Shown piece by piece: positions 31,116 to 53,658 of a stretch of 64,000 bases of DNA. The notes beneath the pieces were generated by a model. The model had not been told where the DNA came from. It searched no databases and saw nothing but the letters and a program-made list of their open reading frames with translations. Made by a program: the position numbers and the translations under genes. Positions within the stretch are counted from its first letter, which is position 1, and each line of letters starts with the position of its first letter. Source of the DNA: Phycisphaerae bacterium. Lineage in GTDB: Bacteria > Planctomycetota > Phycisphaerae > Phycisphaerales > SM1A02. The stretch spans positions 1 to 64,000 of the forward strand of contig PBAY01000036.1 in the NCBI GenBank assembly GCA_002717655.1. The letters run 5' to 3'.

Positions 31116-31151
31116 GGCCGACTCGCATGCGAGCCGGCCTGCTCTTTTTTT
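31116..31151 (+). terminator. Intrinsic terminator after the PVC heme protein gene
   Basis: The hairpin pairs GGCCG-A-CTCG with CGAG-C-CGGCC around a CATG loop (31116-31139), followed by TGCTC and a run of seven T from 31145. The polarity fits the plus-strand gene ending at 30981. The last T bases overlap the stop codon of the convergent fusion gene at 31150. Confidence 0.9.
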
Positions 31152-33426: not shown

Positions 33427-36120
33427 TCAATCCGAGAGGGACTTCAGCCCCAAGAGCATGGAATGCTCAGGCCCGATCAACAGAGCAAGCTTCCTTCTGG
33501 CTCGATCATTCAGATTCCCTCGCTCGAGACGATCGCTTCTGAGCTGGAATTCAATCGCTTCCTCAGCCTTCCAGATCTCAGCAGCCATCGAATCCAGCCC
33601 CTCAGGGCCATCAAATTCGTCGGTAAATGATCGCATTCGAGCGATCATGCGATCACAGACTTCCTGATATGGAATCTGATACTCAAGCCGGATCTCTTCG
33701 ATTCCCTGATGGTGTTCCATCAACACATCCAGAGCCATCGCCTTTTTCAGAATGCGATGAACTGACTGAGGATCATGCATCGCTGCTGGAAATGCAGCCT
33801 TGTCAAAGGCAAGTCTGTACATGTTTGCGCCGTCCGAAGTCAACGACCCATCAAAGTGATCAAGAGAACTTCGATTCAATTCACGAAGCTGCGTATCCAG
33901 TATTGCCAGACGCCGCGCCGATTCCATGATGCCATCTTCACCGTTGGGCCAGACCACCGCACCCCCCTCCTCCATCGCTTCGACTGCTCTGAGGAAGGCC
34001 TGCGCATTGAGCTTGGTATTTTCAATATTCTCAGACCAACGCTGAGCATGGAGCTCGTCGGCTCTGAGGTCATATGCCTGCAAGGCATGAGCAACCATGT
34101 CACGATCCTGATCAGACAGCGGCATTCCGATACCAAGCTCAAGAAGATCGACTTCTTCTTCACGGCTGGCCATCAACAGACCCTTCATGAAACCGGAATC
34201 GATTCCATGCTGATGGGCGACTCTTCTTCGAGCACGAATGACCCGATTCAACTCGTCTTCAGACCAGCTGATACTTGACCCGACCTGATCAAGAAACCAT
34301 GAATCAAGTTCATGAATCTGGCTCATCGCGGATTTCAGATCGCGAGCGATCACCTCAGGGGCATGCCGTTCAGGATCCGGCATATCCAGACCATGACCCG
34401 CAGTGGAAAGACGAACTGGCGTGAGGACATCAGTTTCCAGCTGCTGCCACCGTATCTGATAATCCTGATACAGCACATCGATGATGTCCAACTCATCAGA
34501 GCTGCAAGTGATCCTAGAGGACAGCCACTCCCGGGAAATTGGACCGGGAATCCATTGCCTCACCGTGGAGCCGGCATCCGGAGCCGAAACCTGCTGCACC
34601 ATGGATTGATCCACTTCGAGATCAATGTCCAACTGTGATATCCCAGCATCCACTGGCGCCGTTGTTCGCCCAATCTCGATGGAACCAGGAGGCAACACAA
34701 GGGGCGCAGCATCGTCATCTGCAGCAATGAACATTGAAAGCATCATGACGGAGTCTTCCGTATCAATCACAACAGCTCCATCCGAAGCCTCATCCATGAA
34801 CATGATTTCTGCAAGCAATCCCGGCTCACCCTCAGGGCGAGGCTCAGGAACAAGACGCTCACCTTTCAAGGCTCCCAGAGCAACCATGGCCTGCTGATCC
34901 AGATCCCAGAGATCGTCACGATGAGATTCCAGCTTTTCATGCAGAGGTTCCCAGACAGGCTCATGCATCATGTAAACAGGCTGATCGAGAATCGCTCCTG
35001 AAGTCTCTACTTCTCTGATAGCCTTGGCAATGAGGCGATGACGGTCCTGCCGGTACTGCATGCCGATCTGTTCAGCTGCCAGCTGCACGTCAGCAACAAG
35101 CTTTGGATCGAAATGCATGGTGTCCGCAAGATCACCTGCACGACCCGGAACAAGTTGGAGCATGGGGTATCCGCGTGAAACAAGATGATGTTCGATCTTC
35201 GCGTAGGCCTCTGCGTTCATCAATTCGGCCAATGCCGACAAGGCAATGCGATTTTCCCGAAGATGACGCTCGTGGAGCTCATGAATCTTTTTTGCAGATG
35301 GACTGACTCCTGTGAGATGCTGCTCCACAAGAGGATTGGTCAAAAGGGACGCCTCCACCATCTCGATCAGTTCTACAGGGGAAGCGGCCTCCCCATTCTC
35401 CGCTGCATGCGCCTTGGCGAGTCGCTCATATTCGTCATCAAAGAGATCCATGGCGATTTGCTCGAGATCATATTGATCCACGACTGAATCAAGCCTTGCA
35501 CGATGAATGGATCTCACCAGAGATGTAATCCTGGCCTCATAAGCACCAAGCACATCGTCAACTGCGTCAAGCTCATCCTGCTCCATCTGAATCTCAGTCA
35601 TGAGAAAGGAGAGATCACGTGATTGAAGCGAGGTCGTACTCATGAAATCGCTGCGAGGATCCAGCGACAATCGAGCTCTTGTTCGTCGATCAGCGATTCG
35701 CGGCAACCGCTTCTGCTGATCTTCTGACAGAATCTCTGAAATGGAACTCATCAATGAAGATTCCAGGCCATCAATCAACTTGAAGATGGATTCTCTGGAT
35801 TTGACACTCTCGACCACCTGACTGCGATCAACCATCGAGAGACCCATGCTGATGCTTTCCAGATCCCAGCTGTCTTTCATCGGACCATTACGAAGATCCT
35901 GCCAGGCCTTGAAATACTGTTCATGAGCAGCATCGATGCCGTTCTCCTGAGCCTCCGCCAGTGACAATGGGGAAAGCAACTGGTAGAGATCCTCGTAGCT
36001 GACAGGATCGGGATAGACACGCTCAGGCACCCTGGCGGCAAGGCAACTGCCAGCCAGGAAGAGAAACAACGCAAGGTGGCTGATTCGACAGACGACTGAT
36101 GCTCTGGCATTGAAATGCAT
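33427..36120 (-). CDS. Large secreted alpha-helical protein with a recurring module (family A, two copies)
   Basis: An 897-residue exported protein of unknown function. A signal peptide (HLALFLFLAGSCLAARVP) begins after the ATG at 36120, which has GAGGA 8 bases ahead. The rest is predicted almost wholly helical and acidic. A module recurs twice: about residues 105-220 (FKLIDGLESSLMSS, DQQKRLPRIADRRTR, RDLSFLMTEIQ, VDDVLGAYEARITSL) and about 545-710 (DELDIIDVLYQDYQIRWQQL, SWSEDELNRVIRARRRVAHQ, EEEVDLLELGIGMPLSDQ, HALQAYDLRADELHAQRW). The same pattern is present in the tandem genes at 49066 and 50631. Its neighbours are a kinase fusion and an esterase, which give no hint of function. Confidence 0.6.
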   Translation of the reverse strand: MHFNARASVVCRISHLALFLFLAGSCLAARVPERVYPDPVSYEDLYQLLSPLSLAEAQENGIDAAHEQYFKAWQDLRNGPMKDSWDLESISMGLSMVDRSQVVESVKSRESIFKLIDGLESSLMSSISEILSEDQQKRLPRIADRRTRARLSLDPRSDFMSTTSLQSRDLSFLMTEIQMEQDELDAVDDVLGAYEARITSLVRSIHRARLDSVVDQYDLEQIAMDLFDDEYERLAKAHAAENGEAASPVELIEMVEASLLTNPLVEQHLTGVSPSAKKIHELHERHLRENRIALSALAELMNAEAYAKIEHHLVSRGYPMLQLVPGRAGDLADTMHFDPKLVADVQLAAEQIGMQYRQDRHRLIAKAIREVETSGAILDQPVYMMHEPVWEPLHEKLESHRDDLWDLDQQAMVALGALKGERLVPEPRPEGEPGLLAEIMFMDEASDGAVVIDTEDSVMMLSMFIAADDDAAPLVLPPGSIEIGRTTAPVDAGISQLDIDLEVDQSMVQQVSAPDAGSTVRQWIPGPISREWLSSRITCSSDELDIIDVLYQDYQIRWQQLETDVLTPVRLSTAGHGLDMPDPERHAPEVIARDLKSAMSQIHELDSWFLDQVGSSISWSEDELNRVIRARRRVAHQHGIDSGFMKGLLMASREEEVDLLELGIGMPLSDQDRDMVAHALQAYDLRADELHAQRWSENIENTKLNAQAFLRAVEAMEEGGAVVWPNGEDGIMESARRLAILDTQLRELNRSSLDHFDGSLTSDGANMYRLAFDKAAFPAAMHDPQSVHRILKKAMALDVLMEHHQGIEEIRLEYQIPYQEVCDRMIARMRSFTDEFDGPEGLDSMAAEIWKAEEAIEFQLRSDRLERGNLNDRARRKLALLIGPEHSMLLGLKSLSD

Positions 36121-36319
36121 GGCCTGATTCCTCGATTTCCCCAACCACGCTCTCATAAAGAGGTCGAATCAGACCTCACATGCCTGGATTATCCGAATTT
36201 CAGGGCAAATTGACCAGAAATCGCTGTTTCATGACCTGAAATAAGCTGATCCAACTGGTCTACCACATCTCATGACGTACCCTAGATGGGATCCAGAGGG
36301 GTCAGCGAAGGAGCCAACC

Positions 36320-37246
36320 GTGCGTCTATTGGCATGGATAACCAGCATTTGCATGTTCTCAACCGCTGTGGTCACACAGGCTGAAGTAGTTGATGTGATC
36401 ATCGTGGCCGGTCAATCCAACGCTGTCGGAGCAGCCCACCCCGACTACGTCCTTGAACAATCCCGACCATATTGCGCTCCGAACGAGGACGTTCGCTATT
36501 GCTTCTGGGTTCATGAACAGGTGTATACCGATGGCTGGACTCATCTTCGTCCCATCGGGGGCTACAGCTTCGGTGTCGAAATGATGATGGGCTATACCTT
36601 CAAGGAAGCAGCGCCAAATCGCAATCTAGCCATGATGAAGTACGCCTACAACGGCGTCTCTCTGGCTTGCGAATGGAACCCCAATGGATGCACACAGAAC
36701 GGCACGCTTCAGCTCTTTGAAGGACTCAAGCAGTGGATGAACACCTATCGCATCATGATTGAGAACGAGGGCGACACCTGCAACTTCGCCGGACTTGCCT
36801 GGATTCAGGGCGAGAGCGACATGATGGCTGAATGGCAGGCCGTGATGTACAAGGATCTGATGACCCAGTTCATCGACGATATCCGTGTCCATGCCAACAA
36901 CCCGGACATGCCTGTTGTGATGGCACTTGTCAATCCAACTGCTTCTGGCTTCAACTGGGTCGACTTGATTCATGAAGGCATGCATGAAATCGCAGCCAAT
37001 GACTCCAAGGTTGCGACGGCAACCTGTCGGGATCTTCCACTGAGAAGTGACAACATCCATTTCGCCGCCGACAGTGCAATCTGGCTTGGCGGGCGACTGG
37101 CCGACAGCCTGATGGCCATGGACCTGTTCAACACGACAAGCGCCCCACCACCTGTTCCAACCTGCCCAGGCGACTTCAATGGTGACGGAACCGTCGGCGC
37201 AACCGACATCCTGCTGGTCATCAACAACTGGGGCATCTGCCCGTAG
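36320..37246 (+). CDS. Secreted SASA-type (sialate O-acetylesterase-like) carbohydrate esterase with dockerin-like tail
   Basis: A 308-residue secreted esterase started at GTG 36320, which has AAGGAG 6 bases ahead and opens a good signal peptide (LLAWITSICMFSTAVVTQAE). Motifs fit the SASA domain (SGNH hydrolase): VIIVAGQSNAVGAAH, YNGVSLACEW, GLAWIQGESDMMAEW and a final SDNIHFAAD with the catalytic His. These enzymes remove acetyl groups from sugars; the substrate is not known. The C-terminus is a dockerin-type half-repeat, CPGDFNGDGTVGATDILL then VINNWG, typical of Phycisphaerae exported proteins. Confidence 0.85.
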   Translation: MRLLAWITSICMFSTAVVTQAEVVDVIIVAGQSNAVGAAHPDYVLEQSRPYCAPNEDVRYCFWVHEQVYTDGWTHLRPIGGYSFGVEMMMGYTFKEAAPNRNLAMMKYAYNGVSLACEWNPNGCTQNGTLQLFEGLKQWMNTYRIMIENEGDTCNFAGLAWIQGESDMMAEWQAVMYKDLMTQFIDDIRVHANNPDMPVVMALVNPTASGFNWVDLIHEGMHEIAANDSKVATATCRDLPLRSDNIHFAADSAIWLGGRLADSLMAMDLFNTTSAPPPVPTCPGDFNGDGTVGATDILLVINNWGICP

Positions 37247-37267
37247 CAGAGAAACCAATTCCTGCGA

Positions 37268-37753
37268 CTAACGGTGCTGATCTACAAGAATCACATTGCC
37301 ATCAGGATCTGTGAGCATCAGGTTCGCGGGCCCCTCGCTGTCCATGTCAGCCTCTACGGTCAACTCGATACCCTTCTGCTTCAGCTGCTCCTGAATCTGA
37401 CGGATGTCCATGAATTCATCAAGGTCTTCCGCCTCCGCTGACCAGCCCGGATTGAACGTGAGCATGTTCCCTTCGAACATCCCCTGGAACAAACCGATGA
37501 TTGAAGGTCCGTTGCGAAGAATGATCCAGTTCTGATCTGGATCTCCACCGACCATGACGAACCCCAGATCCTCGTAGAAGGCTCTGGAAACCTTGAGATC
37601 CTTCACGGAAAGACTGACTGAAAAGTTTCCGAGCTCCATACCAACATCCTTCTGATACGCCATAGGTTTCGTTGGAGCCACGCTGGCCTGATGACACCCC
37701 GCGAGACCAGCCAGAACCATCAGGGCGATCAAATTTCGATTCATGAAGTTCAT
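37268..37753 (-). CDS. VOC/glyoxalase-fold lipoprotein
   Basis: A 161-residue predicted lipoprotein (start at 37753; lipobox LAGC with Cys20) carrying a vicinal-oxygen-chelate domain: LSVKDLKVSRAFYEDLGFVMV, DQNWIILRNGPSIIGLFQG and a C-terminal LMLTDPDGNVILVDQ. VOC proteins include glyoxalases, bleomycin-resistance proteins and dioxygenases. The His/Glu metal ligands are not convincingly present, so catalysis is uncertain. A lipid-anchored VOC protein is uncommon; it may bind an extracytoplasmic ligand. It lies tail to tail with the esterase. Confidence 0.7.
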   Translation of the reverse strand: MNFMNRNLIALMVLAGLAGCHQASVAPTKPMAYQKDVGMELGNFSVSLSVKDLKVSRAFYEDLGFVMVGGDPDQNWIILRNGPSIIGLFQGMFEGNMLTFNPGWSAEAEDLDEFMDIRQIQEQLKQKGIELTVEADMDSEGPANLMLTDPDGNVILVDQHR

Positions 37754-37843
37754 GAAAGCACCTTCTGAACCAGAGATCTTGACCGTATGCCCCGTCTCCA
37801 CTGGTGACATCAACCAGAGTACAGGGAACGCTGGATCAACGAG

Positions 37844-37873
37844 AGCAGCCCCCTTCTGACGAAGAGGGCTGCT
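37844..37873 (-). terminator. Terminator-like hairpin downstream of the initiator tRNA
   Basis: A 13-bp stem with a GTCA loop, written on the minus strand as AGCAGCCCTCTTC-GTCA-GAAGGGGGCTGCT with one T.G wobble. It lies 11 bases downstream of the tRNA in its reading direction. The tract after it (CTCGTTGATCC) is poor in T, so it may work as a processing site, or as a weak terminator; the plus-strand side is followed by TTTCATG. Confidence 0.55.
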
Positions 37874-37884
37874 TTCATGATCAA

Positions 37885-37958
<74 letters not shown>

Positions 37959-38093
37959 GCTGAAGCGAGCCAGTATAGGTCCACCGGGACAGGGGTCAAG
38001 CTGAGCCCATCAACCAATTCAGCAGGTGCAGGGAATACCCTGATGCGTCACAATGCTTGCATGCGGTCCGAGAACCGCCTTGAGGAGCCGGCC

Positions 38094-39860
38094 ATGAGCA
38101 AGAAACCCATTGGACTGCTTGTACAGCAAGCTGATGCGGCTACCCGCCAAGGCGATCACGCGAAAGCCCTCAAACTGCTTCAACGTGCCATGAAGGATCA
38201 GCCGGATTCAGTGGAACTCGGCACCAAGCTCAGCAGTTCCATGCTTGCTCAGGGACGAGCCAAGGAGGCCGTGAGTCTGCTCAAGCGACTACTTCGCAAG
38301 AACTCCGATGATCCCTCGCTCCTGACCTCCCTGGTCCAGGCACAGCGATCAGACCAGAATCTGGGCGGCTCGCTTGAAGCCGCACTCCAGTTGACGCAGG
38401 TCAGCCCTGACGATGCTGAATCATGGCGACTGCTAGGACATGCCCAGCTTTCTTCCGCTGACGCCCCCAGTGCCTATGAATCTCTGAAGCAGGCGCATGA
38501 TCTCGATCCCGACAATCTTGAGATCCGTGGACTTCTGGCAGATGCACAGTTGAGCACTGGCATGTTTCCTCTTCCATTTGATCACACTGAAGCCCTTGCT
38601 GAACTGCAACCCAACAGTTCTCGCAATCACGCACGGCTGGGAAATGCGTACAGAATCAACAACCGATTCGAAGAGGCAATTGCCGCATTCGATCAGGCTC
38701 TTGCCTTCGACCGGAACAATCTTGAAGCCATCGCCGGGAAGGCCGAGGTACTGGAGTCACTTGGAAAAACGGAAGAAGCCCTGTCGATCGTGAAACCGAG
38801 GATCGTGACCGGACAGACTTCCTTTCTGCTTCTGGGGTGCTGGGCTCGATTATGCAGCCGGAAGAAGGATCACGAAGCAGCCATCGGCCCCATCGAACAC
38901 TACATCAGTCAGGGCAACGCCTCGGCTTGGCACCGAAGCAATCTCCTCATCAGACTGGGCCTGTTGTACGAAAAAGTCGGCCGCTATGACGAAGCCTTCA
39001 AAGCCTGGACCATTGGAAACAGTCTGCACAAGGGCCGCTGGAACCGTGAAAGCCATGAAGCATTCATCACCAGCCTGATGCAGGCCTATTCAAGCGACGC
39101 GATGAAAGACTTGCCAAGAAGCAGTTTCAAGAGCAGACAGCCCATCTTCATTGTGGGCATGTATCGAAGCGGGACAACGCTCACGGAACAGATTCTCTCC
39201 GCGCACCACTCGATCGCGGGAGCGGGCGAGCTGGGACAACTGGTGAGTCAGGTACAGCAACTACCCGAACGAGTCGATGGTGATGCCCCCTACCCCGATT
39301 GTCTGGCAAACATCACTTCGGACCTCCTGACCGTGATGGCCCAGGAATACTGCGACTACGCCCATCAGCTGGCTGACAACCAGGAACGCATCACTGACAA
39401 GATGCCCATGAACTACATGAATGTAGGCTTGATTTCATTGATGTTCCCGGAAGCCAGAATCATTCACTGCACTCGCAATCCGCTCGACACCTGCATCTCC
39501 TGCTACGGCAATGCGTTTTCATCAAGGATGGCCTACACCTCGGACCTGTCGGATCTGGGACACGCCTATGGGCAATATCAGCGGATCATGAAACACTGGG
39601 AATCAGTCAACACCATTCCGATCATGGAACTGAACTACGAGGATCTGGTCAGTGACCCTGAACCTCAGCTCCGAAGAGTCATGGAATTCATCGACATGCC
39701 ATGGGATGACGCCTGCCTGTCATTCCATGAGTCCAAGAGAATCAATGTGACACCGAGCATCGATCAGGTACGTGAACCGCTGTATCGAGGTTCGATGGGA
39801 CGAGCCGGTCATTACGACGCACATCTCGGACCACTCAAGCAGGCCCTTGAGCAACGCTAG
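38094..39860 (+). CDS. TPR-repeat sulfotransferase family protein
   Basis: A 588-residue protein. The N-terminal half has about eight TPR-like helical pairs (IGLLVQQADAATRQGDHAKALKLL, PSAYESLKQAHDLDPDN, RFEEAIAAFDQALAFDRNN). The C-terminal half is a P-loop sulfotransferase domain: PIFIVGMYRSGTTLTEQIL near 350 is the 5'-phosphosulfate loop, and HCTRNPLDTCISCYGN the 3'-phosphate-binding element. It would move sulfate from PAPS to a sugar, lipid or peptide. The start at 38094 is supported by GAGGAG about 8 bases ahead. Its TAG stop is shared with the TAG of convergent hutF through the palindrome CTAG. Confidence 0.85.
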   Translation: MSKKPIGLLVQQADAATRQGDHAKALKLLQRAMKDQPDSVELGTKLSSSMLAQGRAKEAVSLLKRLLRKNSDDPSLLTSLVQAQRSDQNLGGSLEAALQLTQVSPDDAESWRLLGHAQLSSADAPSAYESLKQAHDLDPDNLEIRGLLADAQLSTGMFPLPFDHTEALAELQPNSSRNHARLGNAYRINNRFEEAIAAFDQALAFDRNNLEAIAGKAEVLESLGKTEEALSIVKPRIVTGQTSFLLLGCWARLCSRKKDHEAAIGPIEHYISQGNASAWHRSNLLIRLGLLYEKVGRYDEAFKAWTIGNSLHKGRWNRESHEAFITSLMQAYSSDAMKDLPRSSFKSRQPIFIVGMYRSGTTLTEQILSAHHSIAGAGELGQLVSQVQQLPERVDGDAPYPDCLANITSDLLTVMAQEYCDYAHQLADNQERITDKMPMNYMNVGLISLMFPEARIIHCTRNPLDTCISCYGNAFSSRMAYTSDLSDLGHAYGQYQRIMKHWESVNTIPIMELNYEDLVSDPEPQLRRVMEFIDMPWDDACLSFHESKRINVTPSIDQVREPLYRGSMGRAGHYDAHLGPLKQALEQR

Positions 39861-41131
39861 GCTCGACCGGCGACCATGGTTCCGGCAATGCATTCCTCCG
39901 ATGCGCCGAGCATCATCGCAGCAGCGAGGTCCTCATCTCGACAATCCTGAAGTGTGGGCGATTCCAGATCAATCAGAACGAAATCCGCTTCATGATCAAC
40001 TGCCACGCTCCCCGCCTTGATACCCAGCGATTCAGCACCATGACGCGTAGCCATGTCCAGCAGCACACGGTCAATGCGCCCATCCTCGTCCCTGCAGGCA
40101 CCTCGCTTCTGCAACTTCAGACGCTGGCCATATTCAACGAGACGCATCTCCTCGAGCATCGAGATTCTTGCGTTGGAATCACTGCCAAGACAGATTCGAC
40201 CGCCCTGGGCCAGAATGCCTGGTACATCAGCCAATCCATCTCCCAGATTGGCTTCCGTCAAAGGACACAGGCAGACCCGGGCCCCGGTCTGAAGATACCG
40301 AGCCATGTCGGATGAGTCGGTGTGCGTGTCATGGACCGCCGTGAATCTGGAATCCAAGGAGAGTCGATCGAGAAGCACACCTGTAGGAGTCAACCCATAG
40401 GTCTGCTGACAGGCCTCGATCTCTGCAGGCTGTTCTTCAACATGCATGTGAAAGACCATGTCACGGGACTGACTTTCCTGATGAAGCAGAACGAGTTGCT
40501 CAACTGGCACCGCACGGATCGAATGCCCGACCACCCCCAATCGCTGCATGCGTCCATCGACCATGCCCTGAAGCCGATCCATGTTGGACCAGTAGGCCTC
40601 GAGATTCTGCCCATTGAACCGTTGTTGCGCCGCACCCAGACGCTGATCGATTCCACCGGTGACGTAATAGGCCTGAAGCAATACCAGACGAATACCAACT
40701 TCACTGGCTGCTTCGAGCATGAGCTGATCAAAGGCCCAGTCTCCCCCATCATCCGTGCAATCATGGTGCAGATAATGAAACTCTCCGACCGTGGTCATGC
40801 CACATCGACGCATCTCCCGAAAGGCTTGAATGGCGATTCGCTTGACTGATTCACGGTCAAGCTCTTCCACCAATCCGTACATGGCTTCACGCCATGACCA
40901 GAAGTCCTCGTCGGGTCGATCGAATCGCTCTCCTCGACCACGAAGCGCTCGTTGAAAGGCATGACTGTGGGCGTTGACGAATCCTGGAAGCAGCGCTATT
41001 CGAGGATGAGTCAAGGCGTCATCCGATTTGTGGACATGACTGATCTTTCCCAAGTCGTCCACTCCGACTTCGATGCCTCGGAGCAGCTCCCCATCAACCC
41101 AGGTCAATTCAGCTCGGATCGGACCGCTCAT
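39857..41131 (-). CDS. hutF: Formimidoylglutamate deiminase
   Basis: HutF belongs to the amidohydrolase superfamily and deaminates N-formimidoyl-L-glutamate to N-formyl-L-glutamate and ammonia in the five-step histidine breakdown route. The 424-residue sequence shows LLPGFVNAHSHAFQRALRGRGERF (metal-binding His55 and His57), DFWSWREAMYG, HMHVEEQPAEIEACQQ, HDTHTDSSDM and CLGSDSNARISMLEEMR. These match HutF rather than cytosine deaminase. The start ATG overlaps the stop of the ArgE-like gene by 4 bases. No hutH, hutU, hutI or hutG is visible nearby, so the last hydrolysis step is not accounted for by a known gene. Confidence 0.93.
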   Translation of the reverse strand: MSGPIRAELTWVDGELLRGIEVGVDDLGKISHVHKSDDALTHPRIALLPGFVNAHSHAFQRALRGRGERFDRPDEDFWSWREAMYGLVEELDRESVKRIAIQAFREMRRCGMTTVGEFHYLHHDCTDDGGDWAFDQLMLEAASEVGIRLVLLQAYYVTGGIDQRLGAAQQRFNGQNLEAYWSNMDRLQGMVDGRMQRLGVVGHSIRAVPVEQLVLLHQESQSRDMVFHMHVEEQPAEIEACQQTYGLTPTGVLLDRLSLDSRFTAVHDTHTDSSDMARYLQTGARVCLCPLTEANLGDGLADVPGILAQGGRICLGSDSNARISMLEEMRLVEYGQRLKLQKRGACRDEDGRIDRVLLDMATRHGAESLGIKAGSVAVDHEADFVLIDLESPTLQDCRDEDLAAAMMLGASEECIAGTMVAGRA

Positions 41132-42285: not shown

Positions 42286-42373
42286 GTGACAGGAGGATAA
42301 CGTCGCGGGAGAACCAATGGGACCTTATAGTGACGCGCGGCCATCAATCGTCACGTATGAAGGAGCCCAGACC

Positions 42374-44422: not shown

Positions 44423-45240
44423 ACCGGTTTCTGAAGCTTCTCCATGCTTCCGAAGAGAATGCCGAGTTCCACGGTTCGTGCCTGATCGGGATGGTGCATC
44501 TGCGGGCACTCCCCGGGACACCTCGTCATGAACATTCGATGCAGGAAATCGAAGAGATGGCACTTCGAGAAGCGATGATGCTGGCAGACGCCGGCTTCGA
44601 CGCCATCCTGCTTGAGAACATGCATGACCTGCCCTATCTCAACCGAAACGTAGGACCTGAGATCGTCGCCGCCATGACACGCGTTGCGACGGTGATCCGT
44701 TCAGCAGTCGACTGCCCGGTTGGTATCCAGGTACTGGCGGGCGCCAATCAGGCGGCACTCTCGATTGCTCATTGCTGCGGGCTTGAGTTCATCCGGGCCG
44801 AAGGCTTCGTCCACGCTCATGTAGCCGACGAAGGACTGATGAATGCCGATGCCGCGGAACTTCTTCGCGAACGCAGAAGACTGGGAGCCCAAGAGGTCGC
44901 CATCATCGCCGACATCTGCAAGAAACACGCCAGCCATGCCATCACGGCTGATCTCTCGCTATCAGATCATGCCAAGGCTGCGGAGTTCTGTGGAGCTGAC
45001 GCCGTGATCGTGACCGGGAATGCCACTGGCGAAGAGGTAGAAAGCGATGAGCTTGACGAAGTCCGCGAAGCCTGCAAACTGCCGGTACTCGTGGGATCAG
45101 GAGCCACAGCGGACACCATCCCATCACTGCTGAGGCAATCGAACGGCGTGATCATCGGCAGCGATCTGAAGCTCGATGGGCAATGGAAGAACGACATGGA
45201 TCCAGCCAGAATCCAGGCGATCATTGCTTCACGCAGCTGA
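44419..45240 (+). CDS. BtpA/SgcQ-family TIM-barrel protein
   Basis: A 273-residue TIM-barrel protein of the BtpA family. Motifs include LIGMVHLRALPGTPRH, EAMMLADAGFDAILLENMHDLPYL, DCPVGIQVLAGANQAALSIA, FIRAEGFVHAHVADEGLM, GADAVIVTGNATG and PVLVGSGATADTIPSLL. In cyanobacteria BtpA affects photosystem I stability; other members sit beside sugar genes (SgcQ) and the true activity is not known. In a non-photosynthetic planctomycete a photosystem role is unlikely. The start overlaps the stop of the S9 peptidase (ATGA), so it is probably translated with it. Confidence 0.85.
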   Translation: MNRFLKLLHASEENAEFHGSCLIGMVHLRALPGTPRHEHSMQEIEEMALREAMMLADAGFDAILLENMHDLPYLNRNVGPEIVAAMTRVATVIRSAVDCPVGIQVLAGANQAALSIAHCCGLEFIRAEGFVHAHVADEGLMNADAAELLRERRRLGAQEVAIIADICKKHASHAITADLSLSDHAKAAEFCGADAVIVTGNATGEEVESDELDEVREACKLPVLVGSGATADTIPSLLRQSNGVIIGSDLKLDGQWKNDMDPARIQAIIASRS

Positions 45241-45251
45241 ATCTGCCTGGA

Positions 45252-45608
45252 TCAGGAAATCATGAATCCAGCGGATTTGAATACACCCTTCTGACACCAG
45301 TGGCAGGTACGCCCATTCAACTGGAAACAGTCGACAATCTCCGAGGAACGGCACTTGGTACAGGTCGTACGATTCAGTTCACTGTCCACGTTGAACTCAT
45401 GCCCGCAGTCCATGCAAAGATGTGGAACATCATTGCCTTCCACGGGAAACCGCGGCTCATGCGGATGATAGACGTAGACTTTGCACCGTGAACGAGGCAA
45501 TCCCTTGAGGACCATTCGAACCAAATCGATGTAGTAGGGATTCCCATCATCCCAGGCAGCTACATATCTCTCGCAGAAGCTGCAGATGAACTCGACTCCC
45601 TGTGCCAT
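45252..45608 (-). CDS. Zinc-ribbon protein with four CxxC pairs
   Basis: A 118-residue cytosolic protein rich in cysteine pairs: FICSFC at 8-13, LCMDCGHEF, TTCTKCRSS and TCHWCQKG. This suggests two zinc ribbons, one formed from the middle two pairs and one from the outer two. The segment between the first and second pair (IDLVRMVLKGLPRSRCKVYVY) looks like a small alpha/beta insert. No known family is recognised. It lies 60 bases after kbl on the same strand, but a functional link to threonine breakdown is not shown. It could bind nucleic acid or act as a protein adaptor. Confidence 0.65.
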   Translation of the reverse strand: MAQGVEFICSFCERYVAAWDDGNPYYIDLVRMVLKGLPRSRCKVYVYHPHEPRFPVEGNDVPHLCMDCGHEFNVDSELNRTTCTKCRSSEIVDCFQLNGRTCHWCQKGVFKSAGFMIS

Positions 45609-45668
45609 TCAGCCCCCCCTAATCACGTCCCATGAGGCAAACCCATGGCTGAAGATTCAAGCCAGGAG

Positions 45669-46901
45669 TTACCCGTGCTTCTTCTTCAACTCGGCAAGCG
45701 CTGCGATCAATCGGTCGAGATGCTCCTGCTCATGCGCTGCTGAGATCTGGACACGAAGTCGAGCGGTTCCTTCCGGAACAACCGGGAACCCGAAGCCGAT
45801 CACGAAGACACCCATGTCCAGCAGCTCATTGCTCATGGCAATCGCCTTGGCGGTATCACCCACGATGATCGGGCAGATGGCCGTCGGGCTCTCGATCACT
45901 TCGAACCCGATTTCCCGAATACCCTTTCGGGCATAGGCGACATTGTCACGAAGCTTCTGAACCAGATCTGGATTCTTATCAAGCAGTTCGATGGCCTTGT
46001 TCGCGGAGCAGGCAACTGTCGTAGGCAAAGCGTTCGAGAACAGGGTTGGCCGCCCACGCTGGATGATCATTTCGATACCGGCCCTGGAGCCCGCGATATA
46101 TCCACCGGCGCCACCACCCAATGCCTTGCCAAGCGTACCGGTGAAGAAATCAACCTGGCTACCTTTCAGGCCAAAGTGCTCGTGGGTACCACGTCCGGTC
46201 TCTCCCATTACACCCGTTCCATGGCTGTCATCGACGACCAGCATGGCGCCATATTCATCACAGATCGCACGCAATTCATCAAGCTTGCCCAGATCGCCTT
46301 CCATGGAGAAGACACCATCCGTCACGACCCATGGGATTCCGGTCATGTCGGGATTGGAACGAGCGGCTTCAAGGACCTCGCGAAGATGACCCATGTCACT
46401 GTGTCGGTATACCGACTTGAGCAGCCCCTTCTTGATCACCGCAGCCAGTCGCATGCCGTCGATGATGCAGGCATGATTGAGCTCATCACTGATGATGATG
46501 TCACCAGGCTCGCAGAGTGTCCCGAAGATCGCCTCACTGGCGGTCCAGCAGGACACGAAGGTGTAGGAAGCTTCGACCCCCAGAAAGTCCGCAATGGTTG
46601 ACTCGAGCCTGTCATGCGCCTCGAAGGTGCCACAGATGAAACGAACGGATGCAGTACCGGCACCGAACTGCTCAAGCCCCTTGAGCCCCGCTTCAACAAC
46701 CTCTGGATGATTGGCCAGACCGAGATAGTTGTTGGAACAGAAGCAGTCGACTGTGCCTCGACCTCGAATCTCAATGGAGGGACCCATGGGCCCATCAATG
46801 GTCTGCAGGTGCTTCAACTGCCCACCTGACTCAAGACCTTCCAGCACACTGGCTGTTCGATTGGCAAAGGCGATTGAACCGGATTCGTGTGTCGTTGTCA
46901 T
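45669..46901 (-). CDS. kbl: Glycine C-acetyltransferase (2-amino-3-ketobutyrate CoA ligase)
   Basis: Splits 2-amino-3-oxobutyrate with CoA into glycine and acetyl-CoA, the second step of threonine breakdown. The 410-residue alpha-oxoamine synthase shows CFCSNNYLGLANHPEV, GTASVRFICGTFEAHDRLE, DELNHACIIDGMRL, VVTDGVFSMEGDLGKLDEL, VDDSHGTGVMG and the PLP lysine Lys259 in TGTLGKALGGGAGGY. The SVRFICGT stretch is typical of Kbl and its close relatives. The start overlaps the stop of the upstream threonine-dehydrogenase-like gene by 4 bases, which supports the pathway. Confidence 0.95.
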   Translation of the reverse strand: MTTTHESGSIAFANRTASVLEGLESGGQLKHLQTIDGPMGPSIEIRGRGTVDCFCSNNYLGLANHPEVVEAGLKGLEQFGAGTASVRFICGTFEAHDRLESTIADFLGVEASYTFVSCWTASEAIFGTLCEPGDIIISDELNHACIIDGMRLAAVIKKGLLKSVYRHSDMGHLREVLEAARSNPDMTGIPWVVTDGVFSMEGDLGKLDELRAICDEYGAMLVVDDSHGTGVMGETGRGTHEHFGLKGSQVDFFTGTLGKALGGGAGGYIAGSRAGIEMIIQRGRPTLFSNALPTTVACSANKAIELLDKNPDLVQKLRDNVAYARKGIREIGFEVIESPTAICPIIVGDTAKAIAMSNELLDMGVFVIGFGFPVVPEGTARLRVQISAAHEQEHLDRLIAALAELKKKHG

Positions 46902-47962
46902 GAGGTCTCCTGACTCACCGCTTCATAGTGCTTGCGAATGGCAGGAACAATGTAATGCTCCAATGCCTCTTCCATTCCCCACTTCGGAGCAAACCCCCAG
47001 TCCTCCCGGGCTCTGGAACAGTCGACATCAGCCGGCCATGAATCAACCAGATTCTGACGCCCCTGATCCGGCTCGAAGGTGATCTCCGCATCAGGGAAGT
47101 GCTGGCGGATGGCTTCAGCAAATTCACCCGCAGATGCTGCGAATGACCCGATGTTGTAGACCGAGCTGGGAGGAGAATCGATTGATGACATCTTCATCAG
47201 CGCATCAACACATTCCGGCATGGTCATCCAGGGAATGACCGTGTCTTCCCTGACGAAGCAGGCATAGGGCTCACCCTGTGCTGCCGCATGAAGCATTTCA
47301 GGAACATAATCACTGGTGCCGCCTGATGGCCTGGTATCTGCAGCGATGACGCCGGGCAAGCGAAGACATCTGAAATCAACCAGACACTCAGGACGACTCT
47401 TCGAGACCTGCCTGTAGTACCTGCCGTAGTAACGGCCAAGGGATTCGCAATAGAGCTTGTTGGCGCCATACATGGTGATTGGCGAAAGATGTTCTCCCTC
47501 GACAAGTGCCCCCGCCGCCATCTTCTCTTCGACGGACCCGATGCCATAGACCGCAATCGTGCTCGGAAAGATGAATTTGACGCGTTGGCCCCAGGACTCG
47601 CTCAGACGAGCCGACAGTCGCAGGAGGTGATAGGTCCCCTGAACGTTCACATCATGTGCGGTTTCAGGGACATGCTCGGCTCTTGAGCTGAGCAATGCTG
47701 CCAGGTGATAGATCTCATTGGTCTCATGCATGGTCATGACATGCTCGAGAAAGTTCTTGTCACAGACATCACCCAGATGCACCTCATCACACATGGATCG
47801 TGTTTCCTCAGGAACATCACGAAGGTCCATGGCGACGATGGAAACATCGTCGTGACGCAGGAGAGAAATCAGTCCATGGCCGATTTCGCCGGCCGCACCG
47901 GTGACGAGAATCGATCTCCGAGGGGAGTTGGGAGGGGTCATAATCAGTGGTGGCTCATTCAT
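46898..47962 (-). CDS. SDR-type L-threonine 3-dehydrogenase-like epimerase
   Basis: A 354-residue extended SDR with VTGAAGEIGHGLI at the N-terminus, FIFPSTIAVYG (Ser), and MYGANKLYCESLGRYY holding the Tyr-x3-Lys. It resembles the short-chain L-threonine dehydrogenases (the UDP-galactose-epimerase-like group) by LRLPGVIAADTRPSGGTSDYVPEM and PWMTMPECVDALM. It would oxidise threonine at C3 to 2-amino-3-oxobutyrate with NAD+. Coupling to kbl through a 4-base overlap strongly supports this over a sugar epimerase role. The start could be 47962 or the internal ATG at 47941. Confidence 0.88.
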   Translation of the reverse strand: MNEPPLIMTPPNSPRRSILVTGAAGEIGHGLISLLRHDDVSIVAMDLRDVPEETRSMCDEVHLGDVCDKNFLEHVMTMHETNEIYHLAALLSSRAEHVPETAHDVNVQGTYHLLRLSARLSESWGQRVKFIFPSTIAVYGIGSVEEKMAAGALVEGEHLSPITMYGANKLYCESLGRYYGRYYRQVSKSRPECLVDFRCLRLPGVIAADTRPSGGTSDYVPEMLHAAAQGEPYACFVREDTVIPWMTMPECVDALMKMSSIDSPPSSVYNIGSFAASAGEFAEAIRQHFPDAEITFEPDQGRQNLVDSWPADVDCSRAREDWGFAPKWGMEEALEHYIVPAIRKHYEAVSQETS

Positions 47963-48015
47963 GGGTCAATTTGTCCGGGACAACCTGCCATTGTAGTAGC
48001 TATGCTCATGGATTG

Positions 48016-49056
48016 ATGGCCGACATGACGCTCCAATTCGACGACCTCCTGAGCCGCAGCAGGACCCAATGCCGCGAGGATGCGATCAAGGCAGGCCTGC
48101 GACCTGGCAACGCCGACGACGCCTGGGTCGAGCTTCATCGACACGGTTGCCGTCAGGAAGAATCCGAACGCCCGATCATTCGGACGGAAGAAGAAGGTGA
48201 CACCGTCAAGTTCGCCTTGCGCATGCACGACGGCCATGAGACCGAGTCCGTGATCCTGCCCATGCAGGGCAGCACCGGGAAAAAACGCATTACGCTCTGC
48301 CTGTCATCACAGGTTGGATGCGCACTGGGATGCGCCTTCTGCGAAACCGCAACGATGGGCCTGATACGCAATCTTGAGGTAGCCGAGATCCTGACGCAAT
48401 GGCATGTTGCCAAGCACACGCTGAAGCAGGACATCACCAATATCGTCTTCATGGGGATGGGTGAGCCCATGCAGAATCTTGACGCTGTACTCCAAGCAAT
48501 CGAAGTTCTTGGCGATCGTTCCGGTGCTGAAATCGCCCCTTCACGAATTTCGGTTTCGACTGCGGGCCGAGTCAAGGGGATCGATCGATACCGCGAGTTC
48601 ATGAACCGCGATGGGTGGAGACAGGTTCGGCTTGCCGTGTCGGTCAATGCACCGAATGAAGAAATTCGCAAGGAACTCATGCCGATCACCCGAGCGGAAA
48701 GCATGGAGAGCGTGCGCAACGCCATGCAGCGATGGCTTGATGATGGAGGCCAGAAGATTCTGGTTGAATACGTCTTGATTCCCGGCATGAATGATCACCC
48801 CGATCATCCGCAGCAACTGGCCGACTGGATTCAGGACATGAACTGCCGGGTCAACGTGATCCCGTACAACCCTCGTCGTGATTCACCCTGGCCTGCTCCA
48901 ACCGAGGAATCAATCGATCTCTTCATTGCCGATCTGCTCTCCGCCGGATGCCAGGTCAATCGCCGCAGAACCATGGGCCGCGATGTCATGGCGGCCTGTG
49001 GCCAATTGGGAAATCCGGAAATCAAACGTCGAGTCCCTCTGCGAATCCCACGCTGA
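48016..49056 (+). CDS. rlmN: 23S rRNA (adenine-2503-C2)-methyltransferase RlmN
   Basis: A radical-SAM methyltransferase that modifies A2503 of 23S rRNA and A37 of some tRNAs. The iron-sulfur cluster motif is CALGCAFCETATMGL, with GLIRNLEVAEILTQ just after. Other RlmN stretches are NIVFMGMGEPMQNLDAVLQAI, RISVSTAGRVKGIDRY, LAVSVNAPNEEIRKELMPI and the C-terminal NRRRTMGRDVMAACGQL with the catalytic Cys. With the ATG at 48016 the protein has 346 residues, near the family norm. It diverges from the tdh-like gene (about 54 bases between starts). Confidence 0.95.
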   Translation: MADMTLQFDDLLSRSRTQCREDAIKAGLRPGNADDAWVELHRHGCRQEESERPIIRTEEEGDTVKFALRMHDGHETESVILPMQGSTGKKRITLCLSSQVGCALGCAFCETATMGLIRNLEVAEILTQWHVAKHTLKQDITNIVFMGMGEPMQNLDAVLQAIEVLGDRSGAEIAPSRISVSTAGRVKGIDRYREFMNRDGWRQVRLAVSVNAPNEEIRKELMPITRAESMESVRNAMQRWLDDGGQKILVEYVLIPGMNDHPDHPQQLADWIQDMNCRVNVIPYNPRRDSPWPAPTEESIDLFIADLLSAGCQVNRRRTMGRDVMAACGQLGNPEIKRRVPLRIPR

Positions 49057-49065
49057 ACCCGGACT

Positions 49066-50568
49066 TCAACGGCCGCCCCGGCCCCCACGGCCACCGCGAC
49101 CCCCGCCTCGGTCACCCCCTCGGCCACCTGAACCACCACGACGGCCACCGGCTCCGTCTCGAGCAGGTGACGATCTGACCATCGAGAGCTTGTCGTATCG
49201 AGTCTGACCGATGATGCCCAGCAGACGCTCGAGCATGCCTGCCTCCCATTTCTGCAGCGATTCACGGCTGCTATTGGAGGTCTCTCTCCATTGCCTGGCC
49301 ATCGTCTCCTCTTCGGAGAAGATCTGCTGTGCGGTTCTGAGTCGGGTATTCAGCAGTCGATTGGCTTCCTGATTCTTCCATTCGGACTGTGTTCGCATCG
49401 CAAAGTCCGACATCCAGCCTGCAGCCTCACTTCGCAAATCTGAAACAGCCGACTTCATGTCTTCCTCCATTGGAACTCGACTGGACATGGCTTCATCGCA
49501 TGAGCGAAGGACTCGGCCGCGTGCGTAGATGGTTGGATAGACCTGCTTGTACAGGTCTTCCTGAAAGGACTGCCCCTCATCACCGCCAATGGCGTCTGCG
49601 ATCTGGATGATGTAATCCAAATTCACATCACGCACCATTTCCCTCGCTGCCAATTCGGCCTGTGATGCGGCAATCCAGGCGGAGACGGAACGACTGCTGC
49701 CAGCCGTCACATACTGTTGGAGGATTGAATTGAACTGCTGCGCACGATCACGAAGCGTGTTGCCCGCAGCTTCCTTCCACTGATCCAGGACTGGCTGAAC
49801 ACGTGCCCTGGTCTCATCGTCCATCACACGAGATCGAAGCATGCCCGCCAGATCAATGGTCTCGCCCCCCAGTTCTCCACGAGTGATATCTCGCGAGAGC
49901 AGGATCTGGCCCATGACCTCCGGCAACCTCATCCGCTGCTCAGGCTCCAGGAACGCACCCAGCCCTGCTTCGAATGCCTCTTGCAGCAGTTGCCTTTCGG
50001 CAACCCATGATTGCAGCGCTTCGGTGTACTCCGAGAAATATCGACTCCAATCGATGGCCTCCGCACGGGCTGTTTCCAGCGCAAGAATCTCGTCCTGCAG
50101 CTCCTTCATGTCCTCATTCATCATGGTCCGCATGGCGGCCGGGTCATCTCTGAATTCACCCGCACGCCGTCGCTTGTCATAACTGGTCCGGATATCTCTC
50201 AACTTCTTACGGATGACCTCTTCACGCTGCTCGATCTCCTCGGCTTCAGGAGTCATCGGGCTCAGTTCAGAAATTCTGGACTGATAAGCAGTGGAGGCCT
50301 CCCGGAAATCATCCTGATAGGAGGAGAGCAGCATCTCCACCACAATCAGATTGTCCTCACTGATCTGAAGCGCTTCTGCAAGCCTGTTCAAATCCGACAC
50401 TTGCCACAAGGGCCTCAGCTGCCCCAGATCAGGCATGCGGATGTCCTGAATTCTTGATGGGCTTGAGCCGGACGGACGTCGATCGCGAGGAGACGTCTGA
50501 CCTGTTGCCAGTTCAGGAATCACAAATACAAACGCCAGCAGAACGATCAAGGACCAACGCGAAGACAT
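49066..50568 (-). CDS. Secreted alpha-helical protein with Arg-Gly-Gly-rich tail (family A)
   Basis: A 500-residue exported protein. The ATG at 50568 has GGAGGGGAG about 7 bases ahead and opens a signal peptide (WSLIVLLAFVFVIPELATGQ). The body is helical and charged: LAEALQISEDNLIVVEMLLSSYQDDF, ILALETARAEAIDWSRYFSEY, AFLEPEQRMRLPEVMGQILL, GETIDLAGMLRSRV and VLDQWKEAAGNTLRDRAQQF. These segments match those in the genes at 50631 and 33427. The last 28 or so residues are almost only Arg and Gly (GGRRGG, GGRGGDRGGG), encoded by GC-rich repeats at 49069-49150. The gene lies 62 bases downstream of the related gene, in the same direction. No function is known. Confidence 0.6.
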   Translation of the reverse strand: MSSRWSLIVLLAFVFVIPELATGQTSPRDRRPSGSSPSRIQDIRMPDLGQLRPLWQVSDLNRLAEALQISEDNLIVVEMLLSSYQDDFREASTAYQSRISELSPMTPEAEEIEQREEVIRKKLRDIRTSYDKRRRAGEFRDDPAAMRTMMNEDMKELQDEILALETARAEAIDWSRYFSEYTEALQSWVAERQLLQEAFEAGLGAFLEPEQRMRLPEVMGQILLSRDITRGELGGETIDLAGMLRSRVMDDETRARVQPVLDQWKEAAGNTLRDRAQQFNSILQQYVTAGSSRSVSAWIAASQAELAAREMVRDVNLDYIIQIADAIGGDEGQSFQEDLYKQVYPTIYARGRVLRSCDEAMSSRVPMEEDMKSAVSDLRSEAAGWMSDFAMRTQSEWKNQEANRLLNTRLRTAQQIFSEEETMARQWRETSNSSRESLQKWEAGMLERLLGIIGQTRYDKLSMVRSSPARDGAGGRRGGSGGRGGDRGGGRGGRGGRGGR

Positions 50569-50630
50569 GAGAGAACTCCCCTCCAAACGGACAACGGACT
50601 TGAACTCAATTCAATACCAAAACCATTCAA

Positions 50631-52079
50631 CTACTGACCACGTCTCATCAGTTCGTCCCAATACACAACATTCATGTTTCTTGATGCCGAAGCAGGAACG
50701 GGGCCACGCCTTGGATCACCACTGCGTGGAGTACGCAGACGGCCAGGCACCTGCCCATAGATCTGATCCGAAACCAACTGCTGGATCTGCTGGTTGTAAT
50801 CAAGGTCGATCTGAAGACCTGCCTGAAGATGATCTCTCCATCCAATCAGACTCTGGGGCGTCATGTTCAATCCGTTCAGCCAGGTGGGATACACCAGCAT
50901 CACGATGTTCGACTCCAGTTCATAGCGAAGTCGATCCTGCTCCTGCTCTGGTCGCAATTCAATCGCGACCAGACGCCAGATGTCTTTTTCCGACTTGTAG
51001 TTCTCCTGAATCTGATTCAGTGCCTCGACGACCTCAGAATCAAACTCCATGTTCTTCAGCAGATACCCGATCGTCATGGTCGGAGGGTCACCTCGATGGA
51101 GATCCGGAAAGATCTCCTTCAGGGCATACGCCCGAAACCTGTCACGCTCGACGCCTTCAGGTATAGCTTCACAGATGAGATTCAACCACTGCAGGTTGTA
51201 GTCAACCAGATCGCCACGAGCTCGCAACTGACGGTCGATCAGGGAAAGCACCGTACGCATGTCGGTGCGGTCTCTGGAATCAAGAAGATCGGGAGTGGTC
51301 GTTGCCAGGATCTCATCCCGATTTCGAAGAAGTTCGTCATAGCCCATGGCATATTCAAGCCGCTTGTTGCGAAGACGCTTGAAAAGATCCGAATCCGCAC
51401 CAAAGTGATTTGAAAGCAGAAGATCAAGATCAGTCTCTTCACCCCGGAACTGTTCCCGCCATGCCGAATTCAATCTGCGTATGGCACGATCGACCGCCTC
51501 CCAATGCGAAGATCCCACACCTTTGATCAATGAGAATTCAGCCAACAACTCTGCCTCAAGCTGCTGACGCCGCACACCCCAACCCTTGAGAAGCGAGGTT
51601 CGCTCCGTCGTGGGGAGGACCCCTACATTGGAAAGCTCCAACTCACGCCGAATAATCTTGTTGATGCGTTCACGACGTTCCCTGCTATTCGTCGATGTCG
51701 TGCCCAGCTTGGTTGGATCCGCCTTTATTTTCATGGCATCTCTGGCGTCTCTGCGGATCTGATTACGATCATTCAGGTCAGGCATCTGCTCCTGATCGCC
51801 CCCGCCTGCTTCTCGCAACGCCGCCTGAACCTGCTCAGATTCGGCCTGAAACTGTTCGACATATCGATCAATCAGAATCTCAACAAGAACCCGTTCATCA
51901 TCGGCCAGCCCGAGCTCCTCAGCGATCGCCGCAGCATCTCTCTGAAGATACGAGGGATAGAAAAGACCTCGCTCCATATCTCCGAAATAGGGACCACCAA
52001 CCTGAGCAGATGCTTGAGCCGTACCAAGGAAGGCAAGCAAGGCCGCTACCATTCGCAACCATTGAATTCCGGGCTTCAT
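50631..52079 (-). CDS. Secreted alpha-helical protein (family A)
   Basis: A 482-residue exported protein with a signal peptide (IQWLRMVAALLAFLGTAQASA), started at the ATG at 52079 with GAGGAAAG about 8 bases ahead. The helical body shows AIAEELGLADDERVLVEILID, then SLIKGVGSSHWEAVDRAIRRL, GEETDLDLLLSNHFGADSDL and KRLEYAMGYDELLRNRDEIL. The last two align with GETIDLAGMLRSRVMDDETR and the following helix of the gene at 49066, so the tandem genes look like diverged duplicates. It diverges from the YpdA-like gene. No function is known. Confidence 0.6.
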   Translation of the reverse strand: MKPGIQWLRMVAALLAFLGTAQASAQVGGPYFGDMERGLFYPSYLQRDAAAIAEELGLADDERVLVEILIDRYVEQFQAESEQVQAALREAGGGDQEQMPDLNDRNQIRRDARDAMKIKADPTKLGTTSTNSRERRERINKIIRRELELSNVGVLPTTERTSLLKGWGVRRQQLEAELLAEFSLIKGVGSSHWEAVDRAIRRLNSAWREQFRGEETDLDLLLSNHFGADSDLFKRLRNKRLEYAMGYDELLRNRDEILATTTPDLLDSRDRTDMRTVLSLIDRQLRARGDLVDYNLQWLNLICEAIPEGVERDRFRAYALKEIFPDLHRGDPPTMTIGYLLKNMEFDSEVVEALNQIQENYKSEKDIWRLVAIELRPEQEQDRLRYELESNIVMLVYPTWLNGLNMTPQSLIGWRDHLQAGLQIDLDYNQQIQQLVSDQIYGQVPGRLRTPRSGDPRRGPVPASASRNMNVVYWDELMRRGQ

Positions 52080-52235
52080 GTTCAATCTTTCCTCTGCAAT
52101 GAAACTACTTTCCATCCAACCTCAGACCACGACTGTGATACAACCCTATTGTGTACAGCCTGCAGGAGCAGATCCTCTTCAGGCTGCATGAAGAACTCGT
52201 CCCCAGCCACCTGCATAGTCTATGCCACCCAAATC

Positions 52236-53261: not shown

Positions 53262-53262
53262 T

Positions 53263-53631
53263 TCAACCACGCGCTTCAAGTATGGAGGGCCAATGCTGAA
53301 TTCGAGCGATGAACAACCGATCAAAATGAACCGTCATGAGATCGATGCGCACGAAGTGTCTGGGATACCGTGCGGCAATCTGACGAGCCGAACGCCGAAG
53401 GCACCGCTGTTTGGCACCATCGATCCGTCTGAAGAGATCTCCCTCACGGGTTGCCGTTGACTTGACTTCAATACATGCCAGGATTCGACCGTCAGGAGAT
53501 TCCGCAATGATGTCGATCTCATCGTGTCCAATTCTTGGATTTCTACTGAGCAGATTCCAGCCTCGACGACGAAGCCATCGACAAGCCTGGCGCTCACCAC
53601 GATCGCCTAGATCACCAGATCTGAAGAACAT
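53263..53631 (-). CDS. yraN: YraN-family (UPF0102) putative endonuclease
   Basis: A 122-residue member of UPF0102, a restriction-endonuclease-like fold family usually near ribosome or envelope genes. The core GDLGDRGERQACRWLRRRGW, NPRIGHDEIDIIAESPDG and ILACIEVKSTATREG includes the acidic/Lys triad (Glu-Asp, Glu-x-Lys) of that fold. The C-terminal VRIDLMTVHF is also typical. The biological role is not settled; it has been linked to DNA repair and natural transformation. It follows the SurA-like gene on the same strand by 27 bases. Confidence 0.9.
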   Translation of the reverse strand: MFFRSGDLGDRGERQACRWLRRRGWNLLSRNPRIGHDEIDIIAESPDGRILACIEVKSTATREGDLFRRIDGAKQRCLRRSARQIAARYPRHFVRIDLMTVHFDRLFIARIQHWPSILEARG

Positions 53632-53658
53632 GAAAAACAGCGTCCCCGGCAGCCAGAA

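Follow-up and report, generated by a model that had tools for sequence, protein, structure and literature searches.

The 64,000-nucleotide stretch examined here (positions 1 to 64,000 of contig PBAY01000036.1 from a Phycisphaerae bacterium; hereafter the window, to whose full length all positions refer) carries three minus-strand open reading frames (ORFs), labelled P1, P2 and P3, which are well supported by sequence profiles as paralogues of one Phycisphaerales family of exported proteins. The repeat unit of this family is, with fairly good support from structural models, a helical hairpin of the CpxP/Spy/CnrX type, and in the most widespread subfamily the gene is the first of a type II secretion system (T2SS) operon. 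We give an even chance to a reading in which these are exported, ATP-independent client-binding proteins, built of tandem CpxP/Spy/CnrX-like hairpins, that first served type II secretion and of which P1, P2 and P3 are diverged copies.

Members, modules and history of the family

P1 (33427..36120, minus strand) is a two-module, six-hairpin protein of 897 residues if translated from the ATG at 36120 and of 909 residues from an upstream start at 36156. The other two are single-module proteins, identified as such by profile matches: P3 (50631..52079, minus strand) has 482 residues from 52079 or 494 from 52115, and P2 (49066..50568, minus strand), which ends in an RG-rich C-terminal tail, has 500 residues from the ATG at 50568 or 506 from the TTG at 50586. 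P3 lies upstream of P2, 62 bases apart. All three have an export-type start, that is, a hydrophobic signal-like N-terminal segment according to a hydropathy rule of our own (not SignalP), and the same rule finds such a segment in most of the relatives listed. Their isoelectric points (pI) are 4.6-5.1, P1 carrying about -73 charges.

A preliminary description of this DNA had grouped the three as exported helical proteins of one family, and profile comparison bears out the kinship. Direct BLASTP comparison was dropped as proof of homology because the pairwise matches are too weak (best E 0.016 for P1-P2, 0.18 for P2-P3 and 0.33 for P1-P3). A profile of 36 P1-type sequences, which includes P1 and leaves out P2 and P3, matches P2 at E 9.7e-8 and P3 at 1e-5, and at E<=10 it matched no reversed decoy and no ORF from outside the family in a set of 5734 forward and 5734 reversed ORFs. 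The profile seeded with P2 matched one reversed decoy, that of an RG-rich member, at 4.1e-5. Run over the own genome in six frames, a profile of 33 two-module proteins, P1 included (A1; its single-module counterpart, A2, holds 40 members), finds P2 at 3.5e-8 and P3 at 9.5e-5, and a profile built without P2 (A4) matches P2 at 5.9e-33.

Among 61 genomes of the host's GTDB family, the own genome included, matches at E<=0.001 are present in 56 for P3, 59 for P2 and 39 for P1. Iterated searches begun with each of the three proteins in a selected set of 1951 ORFs converge on 99, 101 and 101 ORFs, 99 of them common to all three, and in the larger set the family comprises 97 of the 5734 ORFs. The own genome has seven members, of which the window holds three and contigs C11, C14, C33 and C42 a single one apiece, in keeping with the earlier impression of a tandem P3/P2 pair and several lineage-specific copies. 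Across the phylum, with at most a few candidates scored per genome, the profile of the core subfamily (see below) matches 6 of 294 genomes, the own one included, all in the host's GTDB family or in one genus of another, and to these the family, as searched, is confined.

Regarding its architecture, the impression that the 897-residue protein holds its module twice is upheld, and P1 can be taken, from profile comparison, as a true two-module duplication. For the 33 two-module proteins, the profile of the N-half matches that of the C-half with an hhalign probability of 100% (E 1.2e-46, 365 columns), and each half matches the single-module proteins (99.8% and 99.9%). Each module in turn consists of three tandem segments of about 110 residues, so that P2 and P3 have three hairpins and P1 has six. 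In P1, with approximate boundaries, the N-module (34858..36009, minus strand) divides into hairpin 1 (~35641-36009), hairpin 2 (~35155-35640) and hairpin 3 (~34858-35154), and the C-module (33442..34563, minus strand) into hairpin 1 (~34177-34563), hairpin 2 (~33766-34176) and hairpin 3 (~33442-33765). Hairpin segments at the same position match at 97-100%. The 27 comparisons across positions give hhalign probabilities of 8-96%, with a median of 82%, and in 26 of these the match spans 73-121 columns. Among the controls, the probability does not exceed 6% for reversed sequences (72 runs) or, in a match of 26 columns, 27.5% for segments taken from seven unrelated proteins (189 runs). It is thus well supported at the sequence level that the module is internally triplicated and that the whole module was later duplicated in the P1 type. 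The three strings by which the family was first spotted align in a single block where hairpin 2 begins: EEEVDLLELGIGMP in the C-module of P1 (34120..34161, minus strand; residue 666), GETIDLAGMLRSRV in P2 (49825..49866, minus strand; residue 241) and GEETDLDLLLSNHF in P3 (51402..51443, minus strand; residue 225), residues being numbered on the long forms.

A quick tree built from 123 modules sorts the N-modules and the C-modules of the two-module proteins into two adjacent groups (support 95 and 86), both contained in a single set (support 100). In this tree P2 and P3 are each joined by genes that other genomes carry at the same rlmN locus (five rows, support 93, and four rows, support 94), four further rlmN-locus rows falling elsewhere. 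The duplication in the P1 type therefore seems to be an old one, and P2 and P3 seem to represent distinct lineages of some age and not copies made recently; the exact place of P1 is unsure because its branches are among the longest. In two loci (L114:4652-7203 and L177:4652-7203) a two-module gene is split over two overlapping frames, probably by a frameshift or an assembly error.

Fold of the repeat unit

AlphaFold2 models were made for the whole of P1, together with six relatives, and for its C-module, together with 13 other modules. The whole-P1 model (predicted local distance difference test, pLDDT, 72.3; predicted template modelling score, pTM, 0.65) is all helix, with a low-confidence linker at 422-521, and the C-module model (pLDDT 88.5, pTM 0.86) shows helices in the order short-long-long-short twice and then short-long-long. 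The alignment of P2 with its relatives is poor in hairpin 1. When the models are superposed on known structures with VIA-align, CnrX is found on hairpin 2 of both P1 modules: at Z 9.7 on that of the N-module (P1 166-320) and, for other CnrX chains, at Z 7.1-7.4 on that of the C-module in the whole-P1 model, and at Z 8.9 over 109 of 111 residues (2.6 Å) at residues 135-262 of the C-module modelled by itself. Across the P1 models, which rest on overlapping alignments, the CnrX superpositions span 108-109 of the 111 residues at 2.6-2.8 Å. In Foldseek, CnrX has the highest probability among the best 50 rows (up to 0.97), the best other structure reaching 0.33 with P1 and 0.75 with the module.

Sequence matches to Pfam lead in the same direction. 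At E<=0.1, LTXXQ (PF07813, the CpxP/Spy family) matches 7 of the 33 two-module members, in which it is the commonest family (the next has one match), and 6 of the 40 single-module members, where it is tied with EF-hand_1; it covers hairpin 1 or hairpin 3 in the 8 of 13 matched members whose positions were inspected, and exceeds the Pfam gathering cut-off in one (L168, 26.8 against 24.3 bits). CnrX, CpxP and Spy, the last two with a hooked hairpin of four helices, are taken here to belong to one fold superfamily, and Metal_resist (PF13801), which recurs among the single-hairpin proteins described below, is the CnrX family. The LTXXQ and Metal_resist matches in sequence and the CnrX match in fold thus indicate the same superfamily, and a CpxP/Spy/CnrX-type hairpin as the repeat unit is fairly well supported by the models.

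Several results weigh against this assignment. The Foldseek E-values to CnrX are 0.8 or more, without significance, and VIA-align itself cautions that Z below 13 can reflect an arrangement common in helical bundles. The whole-P1 list is headed by a plant TGA3 chain (Z 11.1, 111 residues, on hairpin 3), and in the C-module list a cilia protein equals CnrX at Z 8.9. A Pfam scan of P1, P2 and P3 at E<=1 gives no meaningful family and no LTXXQ match in any of them. Spy and CpxP chains are absent from the best 50 rows of either VIA-align list, which excludes nothing. The same scores could be expected of a genuinely new family whose resemblance to CpxP, Spy and CnrX is convergent packing of helical hairpins, with Foldseek E near 1, unrelated helical chains at Z 7-11 and all LTXXQ scores but one below the cut-off; we hold this to be very improbable, since LTXXQ, Metal_resist and the modelled CnrX fold point to one superfamily and the stronger of the matches extend over almost all of the profile or chain.

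The preliminary view that the proteins contain no known domain accordingly gives way to a CpxP/Spy/CnrX-type hairpin, recognised by modelled fold and by weak Pfam matches in relatives. That the family is undescribed holds in so far as no Pfam model covers P1, P2 or P3, and has to be tempered in so far as it looks like a multi-hairpin variant of a known fold. NCBIfam gives scattered single matches with A2, one of them to a CpxP model at 0.02, and PDB sequence searches with A1, A2 and the single-hairpin alignment A10 (see below) returned nothing meaningful. In the literature searched, whose coverage leaves out most subscription journals, nothing was found on this family or on LTXXQ in planctomycetes, and LTXXQ combined with type II secretion returned only papers that are unrelated by title and the start of the abstract.

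In comparison with CpxP and Spy, the family shares the export-type start, the all-helical make-up, LTxxQ-like signatures visible by eye and the one relative above the Pfam cut-off. It differs from them in being acidic overall, in the link of one subfamily to T2SS genes and in its chain, which holds three or six hairpins where CpxP and Spy have a single hairpin per chain and act as dimers. With CnrX it shares the whole-length superposition on hairpin 2 of both modelled P1 modules, but the chain here is multi-hairpin, no conserved His/Cys metal site is seen and no sigma-factor gene is found among the neighbours scanned.

The family and the type II secretion operon

The core subfamily is the most widespread one and includes the member on contig C42 of the own genome. 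Its gene lies directly upstream of gspE, on the same strand, in all 37 of the fetched loci with a GspE ORF; these loci were all fetched because they hold a family member, 33 of them coming from the host's GTDB family and 4 from one genus of another. Of the 37 loci, 33 also have homologues of F, G, J and K. With Pfam, GspE, F, G and K are named at scores above the cut-off, whereas GspJ stays below its own. Past gspK, the own genome has three more genes on this strand that lack a Pfam match and then, about 4 kb from gspK, one for a secretin. The four genomes of the other family have a tandem array of three single-module genes ahead of gspE. The core member is, in its fixed place, the first gene of the type II secretion operon. 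The link was invisible in the window because that operon lies outside it. Elsewhere in the own genome, contig C8 (L232:1827-14855) has an ORF of 4342 residues that contains 36 Secretin_N domains and, at the C-terminus, a single Secretin domain; this giant secretin, judging from its domains, could form a very long periplasmic channel.

Such a fixed position would also be expected if the gspE-linked copy were a structural or assembly part of a divergent T2SS, for instance in place of GspC or a pilotin, with P1, P2 and P3 as its paralogues. Besides the 37 loci and the tandem triples in the four genomes of another family, this explanation can draw on the finding, made with the core-subfamily profile, of a family member (not necessarily the gspE-linked copy) in 110 of the 111 genomes of the host's GTDB family with at least 90% completeness, and on the lack of a GspC-like gene among the operon genes scanned. 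The three operon genes without a Pfam match may, however, be divergent GspC, L or M, no gspE is found within 9 kb or the fetched stretch around P1, P2, P3 and the RG-rich paralogues, and the rapid divergence and varying copy number would be unusual for a machine part. Pfam recognises no Gsp domain in P1, P2 or P3, and none is among the families listed for the two-module and single-module alignments. On this balance we consider a T2SS part unlikely.

Outside the host's GTDB family, gspE relatives occur in 14 of 14 genomes, several per genome, and the HMMs (hidden Markov models) of the family matched nothing in 12 gspE neighbourhoods there. Three genes preceding gspE in these genomes were checked with Pfam, and only that of locus L269 looked alike by eye: placed 96 bases before gspE, it has an ORF of 225 residues and encodes a protein of about 184 residues that begins with a signal-like segment, contains an RG stretch and ends in an LTxxQ-like sequence. 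A class-wide search seeded from this protein gave matches in 72 of 298 genomes, and in 27 of the 30 best loci a single-hairpin gene with a signal-like start lies directly before a gspE; coordinates in genomes G245, G258, G280 and G302 likewise place one before a gspE. The proteins, aligned as A10, thus resemble the core subfamily in their place before a gspE, the signal-like start, the RG-rich stretch and the LTxxQ-like C-terminus seen by eye, and differ from it in their length (~160-210 residues) and single hairpin. Their profile matches A1 moderately (81%) and the hairpin profile N1 at 62.6%, with reversed and unrelated controls below 1%. Among the 30 proteins, the Pfam family matched most often is Metal_resist (9 of 30, best 6.5e-6). 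Two further observations belong to these loci: in L295:832-3213, a class-level relative, four single-hairpin genes stand in tandem upstream of a gspE, a possible step towards fused hairpins, and in L268:4081-4779 the gene preceding gspE carries an InlB-type repeat and a weak PEP-CTERM match and is not a hairpin protein.

These matches to Metal_resist, together with the fold match to the metal sensor CnrX, bring in a regulatory alternative, in which the proteins would work in the periplasm as sensors or anti-activators, much as CnrX, ZraP or CpxP do, and would control a sigma factor or a kinase. A2 has no column with more than 50% His or Cys, A1 has a single column rich in His (88%) and a single one rich in Cys (52%), and no sigma factor, anti-sigma or kinase gene is found among the neighbours scanned. 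A metal sensor is less likely because no conserved His/Cys metal site is seen, and we regard the regulatory alternative as very unlikely.

As for the descent of the secretion-linked copies, the single-hairpin profile matches A2 at 6.5% and the other eight hairpin profiles at 5.7% at most, three coiled-coil families match 7 of the 30 single-hairpin proteins each, nearly as often as Metal_resist, and there are several gspE paralogues per genome. In G245, G258 and G302 the gspE that follows the hairpin gene is not the closest one, so that orthology may not extend to all of the operons. Given partial profile links and doubtful orthology, a series from one to three to six hairpins at the secretion operon is therefore plausible and not proven. 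In its fullest form, which we put forward only tentatively, the CpxP/Spy-like hairpin protein would be an unrecognised companion of the T2SS, near-obligate here and widespread in the class, that acts as an escort chaperone; it would have one hairpin elsewhere, a fused triplet here and tandem triplets in one genus, and P1, P2 and P3 would have been freed for other clients in the envelope in the course of this growth from one to three to six.

Predicted function and genomic neighbourhood

Spy is described as an ATP-independent periplasmic chaperone with two LTxxQ motifs (PMC4791398, PMC8144458). Spy and CpxP use a concave surface to bind exported proteins that are unfolded or misfolded, and need no ATP for this (PMC8144458, PMC4791398, PMC4160245); the surface is positively charged in both (PMC8144458, PMC4160245), and CpxP cooperates with DegP against misfolded pilus subunits (PMC4160245). 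Hairpin chains, export signals, T2SS genes and, at times, rotamase or HtrA-type genes lead us to read the family best as holding or escort proteins for exported clients, a chaperone function and periplasmic action being inferred. Its members would act in the periplasm, or during exit from it, as ATP-independent client-binding proteins, and their row of hairpins would give long grooves in which exported proteins are held or escorted. The copy linked to the T2SS would be at the service of secretion clients or of the secreton, and type II secretion would have been the first role of the family; P2 and P3, as well as the six-hairpin proteins, would be copies recruited to other protein-handling tasks in the envelope. 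Against a close copy of the Spy mechanism stands the acidity of the family: pI is 4.6-5.8 in nearly all members, 2 of the 33 two-module proteins being at 7.8 and 9.1, and a Spy-like charge mechanism therefore cannot be assumed.

The neighbours that prompt the idea of recruitment are found at part of the loci. Upstream of the P3/P2 pair, and as context only, the window holds a UPF0102 gene (53266-53658, minus strand; 58.6 bits, above the cut-off) and a probable PpiC-type rotamase gene with a lipoprotein-like start by eye (53659-54909, minus strand), whose Rotamase_2 score is 17.7 bits against a cut-off of 27. P2/P3-type genes lie beside rlmN in 9 loci, and the probable PpiC-type rotamase and UPF0102 genes are near in 7 of these 9. 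An HtrA-type protease gene is found on the same strand within 4 kb at 11 of the 37 loci with a family ORF longer than 780 residues. The likeness to DegP/SurA periplasmic quality control lies in this adjacency of HtrA-type and probable PpiC-type genes to some members, no sequence relation being seen. The recruitment argument is weakened by the PpiC assignment being below the Pfam cut-off, by the chance that the rotamase neighbourhood is general synteny, and by the make-up of the 37 long-ORF loci, of which L216 is probably not two-module and some are on short contigs. In the window itself, a promoter and terminator scan of 48500-53800 gave no more signals than shuffled sequences, and 12 bases downstream of P1 an ORF at 31150-33414 (minus strand) encodes a 754-residue fusion of an APH-type kinase domain and a class-III aminotransferase.

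The RG-rich members (L094:8163-10193 and others) have long RG-rich N-termini and EF-hand-like loops near the C-terminus, and a subtilase gene adjoins the RG-rich copy of the own genome. These features, the RG-rich tails and the several lineage-specific copies would suit proteins with a structural role at the surface or outside the cell, or cargo that the secretion system exports. Neither a surface anchor nor an adhesin repeat is among the Pfam families listed (A1 25 of 33, A2 25 of 42), the protein that fits best in fold over a whole domain is small and periplasmic, and cargo would not be expected as the regular first gene of the operon. No evidence was found to support the structural surface role suggested in the preliminary description, and surface proteins or cargo seem quite unlikely.

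If the holding or escort reading applies, it would give a role to a set of proteins present in 110 of 111 near-complete genomes and without a fitting Pfam or NCBIfam model. The known CpxP/Spy/CnrX proteins are small single-hairpin chains, and three or six fused hairpins at the head of a T2SS operon would be a new architecture. Moreover, the family would offer an evolutionary series for a small chaperone that grew by repeated fusion, and it raises the testable proposal that the secretion system of these bacteria has a dedicated periplasmic binding partner.

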